From Desulfocapsa sulfexigens (GTDB taxonomy: Bacteria; Desulfobacterota; Desulfobulbia; Desulfobulbales; Desulfocapsaceae): DNA of 43,733 bases. The position numbers and the translations under genes were made by a program. This document shows, piece by piece, positions 13,671 to 43,654 of the stretch (position 1 is its first letter; each line of letters starts with the position of its first letter). The stretch is taken from assembly GCA_015662865.1 (NCBI GenBank), contig DQTH01000173.1, positions 1 to 43,733 of the forward strand, written 5' to 3'. A model generated the notes under the pieces. That model was given only the letters and a program-made list of their open reading frames with translations. It ran no database searches and was not told the origin of the DNA.

Positions 13671-14741
13671 ATGCAGTTTCGTAGCGGTGTATTCATTATC
13701 ACTGAAGAGAGGCATTGCCCGCTTTATAATGTTGGCGAAGAATTACATGTGGATGAGGGGGTTCTTAAGCTGCCGGCAGCCAAGCCGACCTGTCTCACTC
13801 TCACCAGAGATCTTATTGAATTGGCCTCGGAAGATGTTGCTTATGAGCGGTATCTTCAGGGCAGTAGGAAAAAGACTAAATTTGAGTGTGGTGGCTGTAC
13901 TGGCATTATACGCTTCGAATTTAAAAAAGAAAAAGAGTTCGCCACTATTCAAATGAAGCTTCTGGCTGCTTCTGAGAGACGTGAGAAACTGAAGGCAATC
14001 TCGCATTTTTCCGGACTTTTGCGGAGAATTGAGATCTTTCAGCCTCTTTCCGACGATGATCTTCTTGATCTTACAACCCTTTTAAAGCTACATGATTATA
14101 ACTGGGGTTTTCCCATTCTTCAGAAAGGTGACCCTGCTTCCAATCTTTTTATTATCATAAATGGAAGAGTGGAGGTTATGGATGAGGACGGGGTAACACT
14201 CGCTGAAATGGGACGCGGGGAAGTTTTTGGCGAAATGAGTCTTTTGTCTGGAGACAGGGTTACCACAACCATCATGGCCATGGAACCCTGTCAGATTGCA
14301 AGCCTCAGTCAGAAAAATTTTCGTCACGTTTTAAACCGCTTTCCTGCCTTACAGGTATTTTTCTATAAACTACTGGTGAGCAGAATCACAACTATCAACT
14401 ACCAGCGAGCCGAGGAGCTTGCTTCCGGGATGGTTGGACAGCTTGCAGATATCCCACCTGTTGAATTGTGTCAGATGATTAACTCCAATCAGAAAACAGG
14501 TCGCCTGAAGGTGGAAGTGGGAGAAAAGAAGGCAAATCTTCTTTTTAATGAAGGGGAACTTGTTTACGCAACCTACAATTCCAAAGAAGGTCGCGAAGCT
14601 TTTTACGATGTTCTGGCCTTGAACGAAGGTCGGTTTAAATTCGTTCATGGCCTGAGTTTGCGTGAGATGGAAATGGATATTCTTGGCGGCTTTATGGGTA
14701 TGCTCATGGAAGGCATGAAGCGTATTGATGATGTTTTTTGA
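13671..14741 (+). CDS. Cys4 domain - cNMP-binding-like - DUF4388 (PATAN) regulator, paralogue 1
   Basis: A 356-residue cytoplasmic regulator with three parts. Residues 1-100 carry four cysteines, Cys16 (HCPLYN), Cys41 (KPTC) and Cys73/Cys76 (CGGC), and recall the small TIGR04076-type proteins. Residues about 118-240 are a cNMP-binding fold (FGEMSLLSGDRVTTT). Residues about 252-350 are a DUF4388/PATAN domain (CQMINSNQKTGRLKVE, LLFNEGELVYA). There is no DNA-binding HTH, so it is not a CRP-type transcription factor. The arginine that binds the cyclic phosphate in CAP is Val here, so canonical cAMP binding is doubtful. A paralogue with all four cysteines lies at 42563-43654. It follows a small membrane protein gene. 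Protein-protein signalling is inferred. Confidence 0.85.
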   Translation: MQFRSGVFIITEERHCPLYNVGEELHVDEGVLKLPAAKPTCLTLTRDLIELASEDVAYERYLQGSRKKTKFECGGCTGIIRFEFKKEKEFATIQMKLLAASERREKLKAISHFSGLLRRIEIFQPLSDDDLLDLTTLLKLHDYNWGFPILQKGDPASNLFIIINGRVEVMDEDGVTLAEMGRGEVFGEMSLLSGDRVTTTIMAMEPCQIASLSQKNFRHVLNRFPALQVFFYKLLVSRITTINYQRAEELASGMVGQLADIPPVELCQMINSNQKTGRLKVEVGEKKANLLFNEGELVYATYNSKEGREAFYDVLALNEGRFKFVHGLSLREMEMDILGGFMGMLMEGMKRIDDVF

Positions 14742-33690: not shown

Positions 33691-34905
33691 TTAAGTCTGA
33701 TTTTTCTGGTTTCTTGAAAGGATGGAGAGGAAATTGTCCACAAGTAACGGGTTGAAGTTTTTCCCTTTTTCTTTGGTCAGCATGTCACAGATGATTTTTC
33801 TTGAACTCGCACGACTATAGGGGCGGGAACATCTCATGGCATCAAATGTATCAGCGATTGCTATCATTTGACTGGCAATGTTGGTTTGCCAGGTGGCGCC
33901 GATATCCGGGTAACCAGTGCCGTCAAAATGGATATGATGTTCAAGAGCCGCCAGAGCTGCAAGCTTAGGGGCTTCTTCGAGACCGAGTAAATATCCGGCC
34001 CCTTTCATTGCATGGTTTCGGATTATTATCTGTTCTTTTGCATCCAGTTTTCCGGGCTTGTTCAGGAGCTCTTCAGGAATAAATGTCTTGCCAATATCAT
34101 AAAGTGTAGCAGTAATCCCTATTTCATAGAGGTGCTGGTCTCGGAATCCCAGTGATTCAGCCTGAGCCAGTGTTAGAATACAGACGTTGATGACATGGGT
34201 AAATGTATATTCATCGCTTGATTTTAGATTCGTCAGGATTGAAAGGGGATTGAGATTTTGTGAGAAATGGTTGACAAAAGAGGACATGTTCTCCTGCACT
34301 CCCCGGAGGTCAAAGCCCTGTTCTTTTCTGATGGAGAAATAAAGCTCCTGGGCCATGAGCAGTTGTCTGGTGGACAGCGATCTCAGTTTTACAGCGAGTG
34401 CTTGCTGTTTTTCACTGGGTTTTCCCTGACTTTTGATTGAATGGAGTTGATTGGCTTGCAGTAAGCTGTCGTTGTGGGGATTTTCCTTAAATTTAAGTTG
34501 GCCACTGGAAATACCTGAACCGCTGTATACCTTTTTCACACTTGGGTCGGCGAGATCAGAAAGAAATCGAGAGAGTTCTCTTGGCGTGATTCCTTTTTTA
34601 AACGAGATATGACTAATGTTTTTTTGTTTAAGAACCGTGATAAAAAGAGAAAAGTAGTCTGCTTCTTCGGTGCGAATAGCCTTGTTGTTAATGATGAGAT
34701 CATTGTCAATAATGAGAATGGACAGCTCCCTGGTAACTCTCAGGGTGTTGTTGAGACTGGTGAATGCCTTACTGATCATTTCCTGAGTTTTGGGATGTTC
34801 GATGGAATACAGACGAGTATTGCTGATAATTATTCTTAGGAGGTAGAGGGTCTTGAGTATCTGCTGGTGAATACTTTCTTTTCGTTTTGAGCCAGGTGAA
34901 TTCAT
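33691..34905 (-). CDS. HD-GYP-type protein with degenerate active site
   Basis: A 404-residue protein ending in an HD-GYP-like domain (about 205-400), a fold that normally hydrolyses cyclic di-GMP. The central HD is replaced: the usual HDIGK reads YDIGK (269-273). HHExxDGxGYP reads HHIHFDGTGYP (323-333). Other landmarks remain (KPGKL, NHAMKG, IAIADTFDAMRCSRPY). Loss of metal ligands suggests reduced catalysis or a receptor role. Residues about 10-120 form a domain shared with the upstream HEAT protein (LLRIIISNTRLYSIEH...). I start it at the ATG at 34905, which overlaps the upstream stop by one base (TAATG) and has AAAGGGA before it. It converges directly on mltG. Confidence 0.88.
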   Translation of the reverse strand: MNSPGSKRKESIHQQILKTLYLLRIIISNTRLYSIEHPKTQEMISKAFTSLNNTLRVTRELSILIIDNDLIINNKAIRTEEADYFSLFITVLKQKNISHISFKKGITPRELSRFLSDLADPSVKKVYSGSGISSGQLKFKENPHNDSLLQANQLHSIKSQGKPSEKQQALAVKLRSLSTRQLLMAQELYFSIRKEQGFDLRGVQENMSSFVNHFSQNLNPLSILTNLKSSDEYTFTHVINVCILTLAQAESLGFRDQHLYEIGITATLYDIGKTFIPEELLNKPGKLDAKEQIIIRNHAMKGAGYLLGLEEAPKLAALAALEHHIHFDGTGYPDIGATWQTNIASQMIAIADTFDAMRCSRPYSRASSRKIICDMLTKEKGKNFNPLLVDNFLSILSRNQKNQT

Positions 34906-37100
34906 TATCTTTTGTCCCTTTCTTGGGCAGGGAGAAGCGCTCTGCATATTTCATGAATTTCATCATCTTTTATTTTAATCCCTTGTCGTACCAGATTAAT
35001 TCGATGTTCAGGATGATATCCTTTCAGGGAATAGAAAAGGATCCGTTTCATCTGGATGATCTTTTGCCGCTGGAAAGGCCATTTTGTGAATGCAATTTTC
35101 TTAAGACTCGGCAGTGCTTTTTTATCGCCAATATGGCCGAGTACCAGAAAAAGTTTCTGGTTCCTTTCAAAGGCCGTGTTTTTGAAGAACTGGTACTCGA
35201 GAAGTTTAAGCAGGTGAGGCACACATGCTGGTGGATGGTGAGTGTTGCAGAGTTCAATTGCTGCGTCAACTATCTGTTCATTTTTTGATTCCAGCATGGA
35301 AATCAGAGTTGCCAGTGCCTCTTCGTCGTGGGCAGGAAGAAGCAGGTCAAGAATCTGCAGACGAACATCACTGTTTTTATGATCCAGGAAGGGCTGGAGA
35401 AGACGAACAGTCCCCTGTATACCAAGATATTGAACAACAACCAGCAATCTTTTAACGTTTACAGTTGTTGTCTTGGGGAGAATTGTAAAGATCTTGGTAA
35501 GAGTTTCCATTCTGAACGTCCTGAATATTCCCACCAGCGGGTCATCCTCAGGAATGTTCGGTTTCATGCAGAATATTTTGAGAAGTTTCCCAAGGATGTC
35601 AGGACAAAGAAGTTCAAGGAATGCAATGGCCTCTTGTTGCTCTGTGGCTGAGGCTTCGGGGAACATTGAATATATATAATCCAGGAAATCAGGAGCAGTT
35701 AATTCCTGTATACATTGAGCGGCGATTTTTCTGATCTCAGTGGATTTTTTTTCTGAAGTCTGTTTTTTCAGGACTTTGAAAACTGTCTGCAGGAGGTCAT
35801 ATGATCCTGAATCTGGAAGTAACAGACTGATTTCCATGAGTTTGTGTGATAGCTCTGTATACTCTGCTTCCTGGTCAGACTTATCCATAATAATCAGCGT
35901 GGCATGGATAATCTTTCTGTTTAAGTGATCCTCCTCCAAGGTCTTAAGGTATTCTTCAAGGGGAAATGCGGGATTTACAGGGTGGCTCGATGCAGGGGAA
36001 CGGGCAAGCTTACTAAGGGAGTTGTGGTACTCCTGCTCAACCTGTTGACTGTATTTGTCAGGATCCAGTAAATTGTCCAGTTTTCCACGTCTTGCAATGG
36101 ACGTTGATGTCGCCGGATCCGCTTTGAATCGCATCCTGGAGAGCTTTTCGACGAGATTAAGCAAGGCTGGAGAGATGTGAACATTTTTTTTATTTACCTG
36201 CTCCACCATATTCAGAACAACAGAATCGGAGAATTTTCCCAGTATTTTTTCCGGATCGCTGTGCTTCATGTTTCGATCACAACTTTCAAGAGTCGTTGCG
36301 AGGAACTGATCTCGCAGTTCCGGATTGAGTGAAGTCAGTATTCGGCTTAATTCTTTTCCTCCAAAAGATGATACCGACTGACTTTTTTCTGAAGATTGTC
36401 GCAGCATCTGATCAAGGAGAGTGGAGAATTGCTGGATGATCTCCGGTTGTTTGTCAACATGACTGTTGATGGCTGCAGCCAATGTCTCTGGTGCCGTCGC
36501 ATCGAAATCGCTGCCATCAACTGCGCTGTGGATGCCGGAATGTCCAAGTATACCACTGGTCAGCTTCTGGGTGAAAGTCAGCCAGGTCAAGGGGGAAGTG
36601 CTTTCATCGTCAGGTTCTGAGTCTGCGCTGGCTTTTCGGTCGAAATAATCATAATTGATTAATTCGATACTGATATGAGGAATATCCAGAGATGATATGT
36701 CCTGTTGTCGTTCTACTCCAGGCCTTTTTTGTTCAGGCAGAATGCCCACAGCTTTTAGAAATAAAAATAGAGAGTGGTGGCTGACACCGTATGAAAATTT
36801 CAGGGAAGCGATCTCGTGGCGGCTGAGAATAGTGGCTAAAGCGGAGCAGGCTGGTAGCTCTTCCCCCAGAGGATTCTCTTCAAATGTGATAATGTTTCTT
36901 GCAATACCAAACAGAAGAGTCTGTCTGGAAATCAGAATTTTGTGTAGTAACTGGTGGGCAACAGCCAGTCTGGTTTTTACAAGATTATGCCCCGGTGGAT
37001 AGAGCTGGATATTTTTTAATGCCAGATGGAGGAGTGAAAGAAGTTCAGTGAGTTGTTCTGTCTCTCGGGTTTGTTTTTTAGGGGCCTTCTGATCACTCAC
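34905..37100 (-). CDS. HEAT-repeat protein with an N-terminal domain shared with the HD-GYP neighbour
   Basis: A 731-residue cytoplasmic protein. Residues about 17-115 (LLSLLHLALKNIQLYPPGHN..., LKFSYGVSHHSLFLFL) align with the N-terminus of the following HD-GYP protein: conserved LL, N, LY, H, N-x-I, L, I-x-x-(L/I)-x-F, G and FL. The middle is helical and charged. Residues about 535-725 are HEAT repeats (LLQPFLDHKNSDVRLQILDL, LISMLESKNEQIVDAAIELC, LGHIGDKKALPSLKKIA). It is translationally coupled to the HD-GYP gene (TAATG) and lies 161 bp after the GGDEF-PilZ gene. It probably scaffolds or senses for the c-di-GMP module; this is inference. No enzymatic motif was seen. Confidence 0.85.
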   Translation of the reverse strand: MSDQKAPKKQTRETEQLTELLSLLHLALKNIQLYPPGHNLVKTRLAVAHQLLHKILISRQTLLFGIARNIITFEENPLGEELPACSALATILSRHEIASLKFSYGVSHHSLFLFLKAVGILPEQKRPGVERQQDISSLDIPHISIELINYDYFDRKASADSEPDDESTSPLTWLTFTQKLTSGILGHSGIHSAVDGSDFDATAPETLAAAINSHVDKQPEIIQQFSTLLDQMLRQSSEKSQSVSSFGGKELSRILTSLNPELRDQFLATTLESCDRNMKHSDPEKILGKFSDSVVLNMVEQVNKKNVHISPALLNLVEKLSRMRFKADPATSTSIARRGKLDNLLDPDKYSQQVEQEYHNSLSKLARSPASSHPVNPAFPLEEYLKTLEEDHLNRKIIHATLIIMDKSDQEAEYTELSHKLMEISLLLPDSGSYDLLQTVFKVLKKQTSEKKSTEIRKIAAQCIQELTAPDFLDYIYSMFPEASATEQQEAIAFLELLCPDILGKLLKIFCMKPNIPEDDPLVGIFRTFRMETLTKIFTILPKTTTVNVKRLLVVVQYLGIQGTVRLLQPFLDHKNSDVRLQILDLLLPAHDEEALATLISMLESKNEQIVDAAIELCNTHHPPACVPHLLKLLEYQFFKNTAFERNQKLFLVLGHIGDKKALPSLKKIAFTKWPFQRQKIIQMKRILFYSLKGYHPEHRINLVRQGIKIKDDEIHEICRALLPAQERDKR

Positions 37101-37261: not shown

Positions 37262-38470
37262 TCAGCCTGCAAGTTGCTGAAGGATATAATCGGCAATAAT
37301 TTCCGTGGAAGTGGAAATTGAAGTGGAGCTGGAATCAAGCTTGAGAAAGCTGAGGCCGATATCATAAGATCCAGTATCGATCTGTTCGACTCGAACTACG
37401 GAACCTGTTAAAGATAAGTCTGATCCCCCTTCCAGAGAAATGAGCAGTTTCAATCGTGTACCGATATCATACCTTTTATCACAGGAAATAAGAACACCTC
37501 CCTCACTGATATTCTTTGATCGGCTATCTTCGTCGTGGTGATTGGTTACCAGGGAATGTATGTCAATTGGTCGATCAAATGCTATTCTGGAAAAAGTTCT
37601 TTTTTCTTCGGAAAACAGGATGAGTTTATGTTTGCCGCTGCTTTTTGCCTGATAAAGTGCCCGATCAGCACATTCGATCAGACCCTGGCCGTAATCACTA
37701 TCCAGCGGGAAAGTTGCAAGACCTCCACTACAGTTGATTGGGATGTCTTCTTCCTTGTGCCTGACAACGAGATTATTGATTTTGTCATGGAGTTTTTTGC
37801 CGGCAAGCAGACCCATATATTTGTTTGTTTCCGGTAAGAGAAGAACAAATTCATCACCTCCAAAACGGCAGGCAAAATCCTCCTTCCGTTTTGAGCCAAG
37901 AAGAGTTTTACCAACCAGTTTAAGTGCATTATCTCCAGCAAGATGACCGTATTTATCGTTGATTGCCTTGAACTGGTCGAGGTCAAGGAATATCAGAGTG
38001 GTGTCGTGTTTATGTCGTTGTGCTCTTGAGATTTCCTGTTCAAAGAAATCCTGAAATGCTCCCCGGGTCAGCAAACCAGTGAGAAAATCATGGTGGGCTG
38101 ATTTAATTGTTTCTTCAAGGCGTGCAAATTCTATGAGTTTAGGGTTGTTCATTCGTGGCCTGACAGCACTGAAATAATCGCAGGCAGCAGTTGTCAGGCC
38201 GATTTGACGTTCAAGGCTGGTTTGCAGTTTTTCCGCATGATTGACGATAGCTTCCCAATGCTCGCATGCATTGTTTTCTGAGAAGTTCAACTGTACAAGA
38301 GTGTGCAGGATAATTTTACAGGCTTCAACCTTGTTTTCATCTAAATAGGGTCGCAGCTGCTGGCGTTGTATGGTGGAGTTTCCTGGATCACTACTCAGCG
38401 AAGTAATGATGTTTTGCTGCAGAATTTGCAGTTTTGAAGGGGAGTGGTTGTGACTACTGTCCTGATCCAT
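37262..38470 (-). CDS. Diguanylate cyclase with C-terminal PilZ domain
   Basis: A 402-residue protein. Residues about 1-125 are helical and unrecognised. A GGDEF domain at about 130-290 follows (DFLTGLLTRGAFQDFF, FLDLDQFKAINDKYGH) with intact GGDEF at 204-208 and an RxxD inhibitory site five residues before it (RKED, 195-198). The C-terminus (about 300-395) is a PilZ c-di-GMP receptor domain with RTFSR and NISEGG, matching RxxxR and (D/N)xSxxG. It can therefore make c-di-GMP from GTP and also bind it twice. No membrane helix is predicted. I start it at the ATG at 38470, preceded by AAGGTG; an upstream extension of 35 codons is possible but less likely. Confidence 0.92.
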   Translation of the reverse strand: MDQDSSHNHSPSKLQILQQNIITSLSSDPGNSTIQRQQLRPYLDENKVEACKIILHTLVQLNFSENNACEHWEAIVNHAEKLQTSLERQIGLTTAACDYFSAVRPRMNNPKLIEFARLEETIKSAHHDFLTGLLTRGAFQDFFEQEISRAQRHKHDTTLIFLDLDQFKAINDKYGHLAGDNALKLVGKTLLGSKRKEDFACRFGGDEFVLLLPETNKYMGLLAGKKLHDKINNLVVRHKEEDIPINCSGGLATFPLDSDYGQGLIECADRALYQAKSSGKHKLILFSEEKRTFSRIAFDRPIDIHSLVTNHHDEDSRSKNISEGGVLISCDKRYDIGTRLKLLISLEGGSDLSLTGSVVRVEQIDTGSYDIGLSFLKLDSSSTSISTSTEIIADYILQQLAG

Positions 38471-38845
38471 GACGACGAGCACCTTAATTATGAGAATTAA
38501 CGGGATTAATTCATTCCTGAGAAACGTTTTGCGATGCATTTTATCAATATTTACAGAAGAATGAAAGGAAAACATCTCTAATTCATTGATATCATGTTGT
38601 AAGTGTTGGTGGGTCCTTTTTCCATGCCTTTCTCAGGACTTGGACTACAATACATGATATGGTAAAAAGACTACGTAGCAGTAATTATTTTAATAACTCT
38701 TTTTAAAGAAAACCTGAATCCGTGGTGGCTGTGTGATTGCTTCTGATTCAAATTGTCGAGTTAATTTGATAAAATTTAATACAATCAGGTCCAGAAAAAT
38801 CAGAATGCATTGCCAGCGAGTGCTTACGGATTCAGGGAAAAGTAT
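38471..38845. other. 375-bp intergenic region between the GGDEF-PilZ gene and nadE
   Basis: It holds a family-2 repeat (38713-38836) that runs up to the nadE ribosome site. An inverted pair ATATCATGT (38589-38597) / ACATGATAT (38652-38660) may be an operator or leader structure for the GGDEF-PilZ gene. Nothing else is recognisable. Confidence 0.6.
38713..38836 (+). repeat. Family-2 MITE-like repeat, copy 3 (short form)
   Basis: A 124-bp element, CCTGAATCCGTGG at the left and CTTACGGATTCAGG at the right, with the same internal blocks as copies 1 and 2 (GGCTGTGTGAT, AGAAAAATCAGAATGCAT). It lacks the internal hairpin of copy 1. Its last bases, AGG, merge into AGGGAAA, the Shine-Dalgarno region of nadE, 10 bp before the start codon. 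Confidence 0.85.
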
Positions 38846-42562: not shown

Positions 42563-43654
42563 GTGCGGCAGAAGAAAAAATTTCGTGATGCCATTTTCGT
42601 TGTAACTGAAGAACGATTTTGTCCAATTTATAATATTGGAGAAGAGTTAAAGGTTGATGACCTCTGTGCGGTGCTTCCTGAAGCCAAGCCGGTTTGTATG
42701 GTTTTAATGGAAAAGCTCATTGAGCTGACAGCAAAAAAACAGAACTTTGGTCAGGTTATTCAAATCGGAGCCCCGAAAACGAAGTTTGACTGTGGAGGCT
42801 GTAAGGGGCTGATTCGCTTCGAATATAAAAAGGAAAAAGGTTTTTCAACACTGCAGATGAAACTTCTTTCCGAAGCGGAGGAGCGCAGAAGAAAACAGCA
42901 TCTGGATAAATTTTACAGCAAGCTTCGAAAATTCCAGCTCTTTGAATCTCTTGATAATGACGCTCTGCTTGATCTCACCGGGCTTCTGGATTTTAAGAAA
43001 TATCCCAAAGACAAGGTTGTCTTAAAACAGGGCGATCCGGGAACACATCTGTTTGTGCTTCTATCAGGAAAAGTCGGAGTCATTGGCGATGACGGGCAGC
43101 GGCTTGCGGAAATGGGGAGAGGAGACATTTTTGGTGAAATGAGTCTTCTCTCGGGTGATCCTGTTTCTTTCTCCATTTATTCACTCCATGAAACAGAAGC
43201 AGCCCTTTTGAGTATTAAAAATTTCAAGCATGTCCTGAAAAAATATCCTGTTCTGCAGATTTTCCTCCTGAAGATGCTGGTGGATCGGGCTCAGGCCATG
43301 GCTCTGCGTTCCGGTAATATCACATCCGGTATGTCTGGCGAACTTGAGGAAATCGGTATAGTTGAGCTTTTTCAACTGATTAACTCCAGCCAGAAAACAG
43401 GTACCATTGAACTGATCCTTGATGACGCCAAAGCAACAGTCCTTTTTCATGAGGGGGAGTTTGTGAAAGTGCGATATAAAGAGCAGGTAGATAAGGCCGC
43501 TCTTTTTGCTTTACTTGGTAAAAAGAGTGGTCATTTCACCTACACCAAGGGGATACCATCGGGAATGAAGAGTATCGATCCTTTCGGCGGATTCATGAGT
43601 CTGATCATGGAAGGTGTGCAATATGTGGATGAGCAGGAATATAGTCTTTCCTAG
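42563..43654 (+). CDS. Cys4 domain - cNMP-binding-like - DUF4388 (PATAN) regulator, paralogue 2
   Basis: A 363-residue paralogue of the protein at 13671-14741, with the same three domains. The N-terminal domain keeps all four cysteines: Cys20 (FCPIYN), Cys45 (KPVC), Cys77 and Cys80 (CGGC), and IRFEYKKEKGFSTLQMKLL. The cNMP-like domain has FGEMSLLSGDPVSFS, again without the phosphate-binding arginine of CAP. The DUF4388 domain follows at about 258-355 (FQLINSSQKTGTIELIL, LFHEGEFVKVRYK). No DNA-binding domain is present. The start is GTG with TTGGAGGG 5 bp upstream. It is probably transcribed alone, preceded by repeats and an inverted-repeat leader. Its signal and partner are unknown. Confidence 0.85.
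   Translation: MRQKKKFRDAIFVVTEERFCPIYNIGEELKVDDLCAVLPEAKPVCMVLMEKLIELTAKKQNFGQVIQIGAPKTKFDCGGCKGLIRFEYKKEKGFSTLQMKLLSEAEERRRKQHLDKFYSKLRKFQLFESLDNDALLDLTGLLDFKKYPKDKVVLKQGDPGTHLFVLLSGKVGVIGDDGQRLAEMGRGDIFGEMSLLSGDPVSFSIYSLHETEAALLSIKNFKHVLKKYPVLQIFLLKMLVDRAQAMALRSGNITSGMSGELEEIGIVELFQLINSSQKTGTIELILDDAKATVLFHEGEFVKVRYKEQVDKAALFALLGKKSGHFTYTKGIPSGMKSIDPFGGFMSLIMEGVQYVDEQEYSLS

Follow-up and report, generated by a model that had tools for sequence, protein, structure and literature searches.

A common N-terminal domain of adjacent HEAT-repeat and HD-GYP proteins that occurs mostly in gene pairs

Introduction

Why do a HEAT-repeat protein and an HD-GYP protein that are encoded side by side begin with similar N-termini? 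This question is raised by a locus of Desulfocapsa sulfexigens (contig DQTH01000173.1), which we analysed within a stretch of 43,733 nucleotides, here called the window. Proteins acting with c-di-GMP are classed by their regulatory domains. Our preferred answer, to which we assign a probability of roughly 65%, is that the shared domain is a pairing module by which the HEAT scaffold and the HD-GYP protein dock as a heterodimer.

The HEAT/HD-GYP locus

Both genes lie on the minus strand. The HEAT-repeat protein P0001 (34905..37100) starts with GTG and has 731 amino acids; the HD-GYP protein P0002 (33691..34905) starts with ATG and has 404. The junction from which a first-pass annotation of this DNA deduced translational coupling is present: the ATG of the HD-GYP gene overlaps the stop codon of the HEAT gene in the sequence TAATG (34903..34907, minus strand). 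Among 16 related loci such a junction overlap (TAATG or ATGA) occurs in seven, and the other nine have a gap or an unclear start.

Like other HEAT scaffold proteins (PF13646), P0001 carries HEAT_2 repeats above the curated cut-off (35.2 against 27.7 bits; residues 568-635, 35196..35399, minus strand), but it differs from them in opening with the shared domain and in being coupled to an HD-GYP gene. P0002 contains an HD_5 domain (PF13487, E 2e-19, 70.4 bits against a cut-off of 27.2; residues 245-385, 33751..34173, minus strand) and is distinguished from HD-GYP phosphodiesterases of this family by the added N-terminal domain. No credible family was found by Pfam and NCBIfam scans in the N-termini of these two window proteins, whose nearest named relatives bear the titles Desulfobulbaceae or Desulfocapsa. 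Upstream on the same strand lies a GGDEF-PilZ gene (37262..38575) for a putative diguanylate cyclase, according to its Pfam matches; such a gene precedes the HEAT gene in 10 of 16 related loci, for each of which no more than 1.5 kb of flank was read.

Elsewhere in the window, the proteins encoded at 13671-14741 and 42563-43654 have N-termini that resemble each other (TEERxCPxYNxGEEL); judged by eye, they look like paralogous cyclic-nucleotide-binding regulators.

Homology of the two N-termini

Since BLASTP revealed no link between P0001 and P0002, a profile comparison was needed. Homologues were collected from 36 relative genomes and by a contig search, and yielded a profile of 16 HD-GYP N-termini (A1, the four most divergent of 20 rows being left out) and another of 17 HEAT N-termini (A2). 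Their comparison with hhalign gave a probability of 98.4% (E 5.4e-15) over 107 columns with 22% identity, residues 14-120 of the HD-GYP protein being aligned with residues 15-121 of the HEAT protein. Reversal of either profile lowered the probability to 0.2-0.4%, and the top score in 100 column shuffles was 18.3, against 85.5 for the real pair. The window sequences alone, without their relatives, reached 14% (E 0.0019). Additionally, a search with P0001 matched the HD-GYP gene directly in four of the 36 genomes, over residues 7-119 (E 4.9e-7, 1.8e-4, 2.6e-4 and 5.0e-4).

These results confirm that the N-termini of the HEAT and HD-GYP proteins are a homologous domain. The common domain that had been proposed in the first-pass annotation from an alignment by eye is thereby substantiated by the very profile comparison that it suggested, and its limits (HEAT residues 17-115, HD-GYP residues 10-120) were right within a few residues. 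Including the C-terminal strand added by the structural models, the domain extends over approximately residues 12-147 of the HEAT protein (36660..37067) and residues 8-135 of the HD-GYP protein (34501..34884), both on the minus strand.

Predicted fold and conserved residues

AlphaFold2 models were computed from two independent alignments of nine rows each (the window and loci L031-L038). For the HD-GYP N-terminus the order of elements is H-H-E-E-H-E-H-E, and the HEAT N-terminus shows the same order with one short strand more and a final helix, so that single-chain prediction, another check put forward at first pass, also speaks for a common domain. Mean pLDDT is 81 (HD-GYP) and 83 (HEAT), with 70 of 159 and 97 of 159 residues, respectively, at 90 or above; the C-terminal tails are low, and the C-terminal strand runs to about residue 135 (HD-GYP) or 147 (HEAT). 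Thus, the shared domain is predicted to be an alpha/beta domain of about 115 residues with two long helices, a beta hairpin and then helix-strand-helix-strand.

Its signature is YxxxH, mostly YPxxH, and lies in the loop that joins the first two helices. In the window it reads YPPGH in the HEAT copy (Y34 to H38, 36987..37001, minus strand) and YSIEH in the HD-GYP copy (Y33 to H37, 34795..34809, minus strand). The tyrosine is present in 153 of 155 copies. Four residues later, 127 of 136 non-tandem copies have the histidine; all 19 copies of the tandem class described below lack it, 16 of them having serine instead.

Comparison with known families and folds

When 67 diverse members were scanned singly against Pfam and NCBIfam, no family recurred over the domain at E<=0.01; the only matches, each in one member, were to two Pfam families (E 0.0034 and 0.0048) and one NCBIfam family (E 0.0053). 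Two weak candidates from a set of 16 members, Thioredoxin_13 (six members, best E 0.0017) and PIRT (two members, E 0.002), were rejected as they were absent from the 67-member scan. Foldseek found no match with E<=0.001 in the PDB for either model. Profile searches of PDB sequences gave nothing convincing, only short matches on engineered proteins: those to an engineered cytochrome trimer (9l08, E 1.5e-5) and to Octarellin V.1 (E 3.8e-5), which we take to be an artificial protein, extend over some 40 columns each and were attributed to composition. With VIA-align the best Z was 3.8 for the HEAT model (3.1 A over 54 residues) and 7.2 for the HD-GYP model (2.6 A over 50 residues, all among the first 54 modelled), both in a range that the VIA notes call common. 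The fold is possibly unseen, but weak fold matches do not establish a new one. The literature searched, which included few subscription papers, showed no description of a domain common to HEAT and HD-GYP proteins, and together with the searches above this supports the first-pass view that the domain is undescribed.

Among known domains, a comparison can be drawn with GAF-type domains (PelD, phytochromes, PDE2/PDE6), which are likewise small alpha/beta domains of second-messenger proteins. This likeness invites the reading that the domain senses a ligand or another cue, similar in role to GAF or PAS and used singly, with gene adjacency reflecting co-regulation only. Such an input domain would agree with the small size, the alpha/beta fold and the N-terminal position of the domain in signalling proteins, and with the loop joining the first two helices, where Tyr and His hardly vary. 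GAF-type chains also recur in the Foldseek rows of both models, all of them non-significant and with TM-scores of about 0.15-0.22; the GAF label of several of these chains is our own assumption. However, no GAF or PAS match was found by Pfam in the 67 members at E<=0.01, and no sequence or fold match to GAF-type domains is significant (among the VIA rows listed, from which absence carries no weight, the HEAT model reached a Z of only 2.3 with PDE6, at 6.5 A over 72 residues). In-chain tandem copies and separate doublings, presented below, fit pairing better. We therefore regard sensing by single domains as unlikely, albeit the strongest competitor of the pairing module; a GAF fold as such is a candidate.

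Distribution and gene pairing

The module is patchy among relatives. P0001 matched 17 of 36 relative genomes, and its gene was found in two of 17 genera among the close relatives of the window. Full-length HEAT genes occur in 16 of the 36 genomes, and in all 16 an HD-GYP gene is adjacent. The genome of the window itself has exactly two copies of the domain, namely those of the pair. In the phylum of the window, profile A3 matches 110 of 297 genomes. It missed the genome of L038, in which a wider profile finds both copies, and genome counts are therefore lower bounds. This scattered occurrence counts against the pairing module.

From the A3 matches listed, 60 regions of this phylum (L094-L153) were picked by score. 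They comprise 38 clean HEAT-to-HD gene pairs, eight regions with nine proteins that have two tandem copies, four where split or overlapping frames carry the two kinds of copy (L103, L116, L125, L135), two with an upstream HEAT partner truncated at the contig end (L102, L109) and eight with single copies. In 12 of the 60 regions the HD gene is closely followed by a convergent frame for a small protein of 187-223 amino acids (e.g., L113:5869-6432); the one that was scanned, from L106, consists entirely of HEAT repeats according to Pfam. In nine regions a divergent gene, presumably RadA-like, is located upstream.

As score had guided the choice of the 60 regions, the copies were counted again with a wider profile, A6 (67 rows: two from the window and 65 of 118 non-redundant ones), and with every match listed. 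In 108 genomes of the phylum it gave 131 matches in 50 genomes. Ninety-four of these copies form 47 adjacent pairs on the same strand, with starts 1.5-2.3 kb apart and the upstream frame being the longer one in 46 pairs; four more lie in two tandem-copy proteins. Random placement in genomes of 3.5 Mb yielded 0.12 pairs on average and never more than two in 1000 trials, against the 47 observed. The remaining 33 copies looked unpaired, among them those of the contig-cut L102 and L109. When 20 other unpaired places were fetched, pairs came to light at two and single copies at 18 (one of these 18 being truncated by a contig end), so the domain also occurs alone.

Pairs recur in two further phyla. 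In one of them, to which the Armatimonadetes-titled genome G329 (that of L037) belongs, matches occur in 17 of 43 genomes, 40 of the 49 matches forming 20 pairs by hand count. A more sensitive profile showed 16 pairs in 13 of 16 fetched regions and made pairs of six of nine apparent singles; in the remaining three regions an HD-type copy lies less than 2 kb from the contig end. Some pairs of this phylum constitute a second class with a diverged HD domain (L171:9828-10949, L178:10293-11417, L186:89-1207), near which lies a gene that we assume to be valine-tRNA ligase-like. In the phylum of G330 (L038) seven of 44 genomes match and three have pairs; the four regions fetched contain two pairs and two single copies. 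The idea that the domain generally accompanies HD-GYP was rejected, since another phylum, that of G416 (L039, with a Clostridiaceae title), gave no match in any of 149 genomes, in a search run without a positive control.

Thus, the domain comes in twos, mostly as adjacent gene pairs or else as tandem copies, and this paired occurrence is a new result of the present analysis. The 33 unpaired copies out of 131, and the 18 of 20 fetched places that stayed single, count against the pairing module and are what would be expected if the domain formed homodimers only and a gene pair merely encoded two homodimers in one operon.

Phylogeny of the domain

A quick maximum-likelihood tree was reconstructed from 139 copies and 115 columns, leaving out ten near-duplicate genus rows of A3 (five HD and five HEAT). 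It is unrooted, has modest support and some long-branched rows, and its haste and small number of columns weigh against whatever the pairing module draws from it. The HD types are separated from a cluster (SH-aLRT 95) that unites 55 of the 60 HEAT-type copies; this suggests an old duplication whose products were kept together. The tandem copies (nine T1 and nine T2) unite with one HEAT-type row in a further group (98) that splits into T1 (88) and T2 (92) and does not include the lone copy of L151. This topology indicates that the tandem doubling was an event separate from the origin of the HEAT/HD pair. A fusion of HEAT-type with HD-type copies as the source of the tandem protein was dropped, for the tree joins T1 with T2.

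An old duplication kept side by side, together with a second doubling within one chain, is the trace expected of a domain working in twos. The separation of T1 from T2 and the lasting distinctness of HEAT-type and HD-type copies fit complementary partners better than homodimers, which makes the latter explanation improbable, more so than single-domain sensing. Least probable is plain ancestry, i.e. a duplicated gene that gained HEAT or HD-GYP outputs and retained the N-terminal domain as a fold remnant in an inert operon: the two types do stand apart as after one old duplication, but inertia hardly explains adjacency in three phyla, a second doubling in tandem and a tyrosine conserved almost throughout. 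The complementary pairing of the HEAT and HD-GYP copies remains the reading that we prefer, even if gene adjacency can persist for regulatory reasons and to that extent counts against it.

Companion domains

Of 28 domain-bearing proteins scanned only L194 lacked a Pfam match, and the companions of the domain are HEAT repeats, HD-GYP, GGDEF-AAA and PilZ. Proteins of about 1430 amino acids in L111, L133, L138, L146, L148, L149, L150 and L153 contain two tandem copies (e.g., L111:1881-6170). That of L111, the sole one of them among the proteins scanned, has GGDEF, AAA_16 and HEAT matches besides, and this architecture is a possible one-chain switch. Proteins of about 1180-1200 amino acids have one copy in GGDEF-AAA-type company. 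In L197:5514-10556 (1680 amino acids) and L198:3920-6676 (918 amino acids) one copy is followed by HEAT, cNMP-binding and PilZ domains, and L196 has a C-terminal GGDEF domain (27.7 bits against a cut-off of 23.8). Within the scanned sample the domain hence travels with HEAT repeats and cyclic-nucleotide domains, and the search among other c-di-GMP proteins that had been recommended at first pass has found it with GGDEF and PilZ. A universal GGDEF neighbour was rejected as a further element, as a similar GGDEF frame was found in one of the 60 regions L094-L153 only (L117).

The HD-GYP domain and its missing metal ligand

The window protein resembles HD-GYP phosphodiesterases in its HD_5 domain, the HH...GYP arrangement and the residues D222, K225, H250, H276, H277 and D305 (numbering of PmGH, PMC4159591). 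Its GYP motif lies in EHHIHFDGTGYP, and GYP is present in all 65 aligned domain-bearing HD proteins. At position 185 it has tyrosine, like 63 of these 65 and like the Y/F subfamily described in that paper. HH is followed by I, M, L, T, V or F in all 65, whereas six of the seven other HD proteins used have Glu. All ten PmGH positions checked are kept in 56 of the 65.

The set of metal ligands of the window protein is incomplete: Tyr269 (codon 34099..34101, minus strand) replaces the histidine of the HD signature (H221 of PmGH), which is kept in 59 of the 65 proteins, and tyrosine at this position is shared by the window and five relatives. According to PMC4159591, activity was essentially abolished in the H221A mutant of PmGH. 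With tyrosine in place of H221, a role as hydrolase is doubtful for the window protein, which counts against this part of the model; judged from its residues, it may be a binding pseudo-enzyme. Among 19 HD partners from the other two phyla (17 from that of G329, two from that of G330), six have a diverged HD domain, with neither the HD nor the GYP pattern found in it; all six come from the phylum of G329.

Proposed mechanism and significance

From the established homology, the common predicted element order, the gene pairing in several phyla and the company of c-di-GMP domains we infer a physical heterodimerisation and the steps that would follow from it. The coupled genes would yield a HEAT scaffold and an HD-GYP protein in amounts balanced by coupled translation, and their N-terminal domains would dock on each other. 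Docking would place the HD-GYP domain on a HEAT surface able to bind a client. The docked HD-GYP protein may act as a cyclic-dinucleotide phosphodiesterase or, if it has lost a metal ligand like the window protein, as a binding pseudo-enzyme, and ligand binding or hydrolysis could thereby be linked to client binding. The upstream GGDEF-PilZ product could supply c-di-GMP locally, although its gene lies outside the module elsewhere. The suggestion of the first-pass annotation that the two proteins pair with each other thus stands in so far as most copies lie in adjacent gene pairs and some in tandem; the contact between the proteins themselves is the conjectural part.

In a wider sense, we see about even chances that this is an unrecognised signalling domain working in complementary pairs in at least three bacterial phyla, both in heterodimeric HEAT/HD-GYP complexes and in two-copy single-chain GGDEF-AAA-HEAT switches, and that it serves cyclic-dinucleotide signalling as a general assembly module whose fold may be unseen. 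The domain, missed by the profile libraries used, is found in 50 of 108 sampled genomes of one phylum and in two more phyla, and its recognition would annotate many unnamed proteins at once. Moreover, pairing of the domains would predict the HD-GYP partner of a given HEAT protein and the region through which the two act together.
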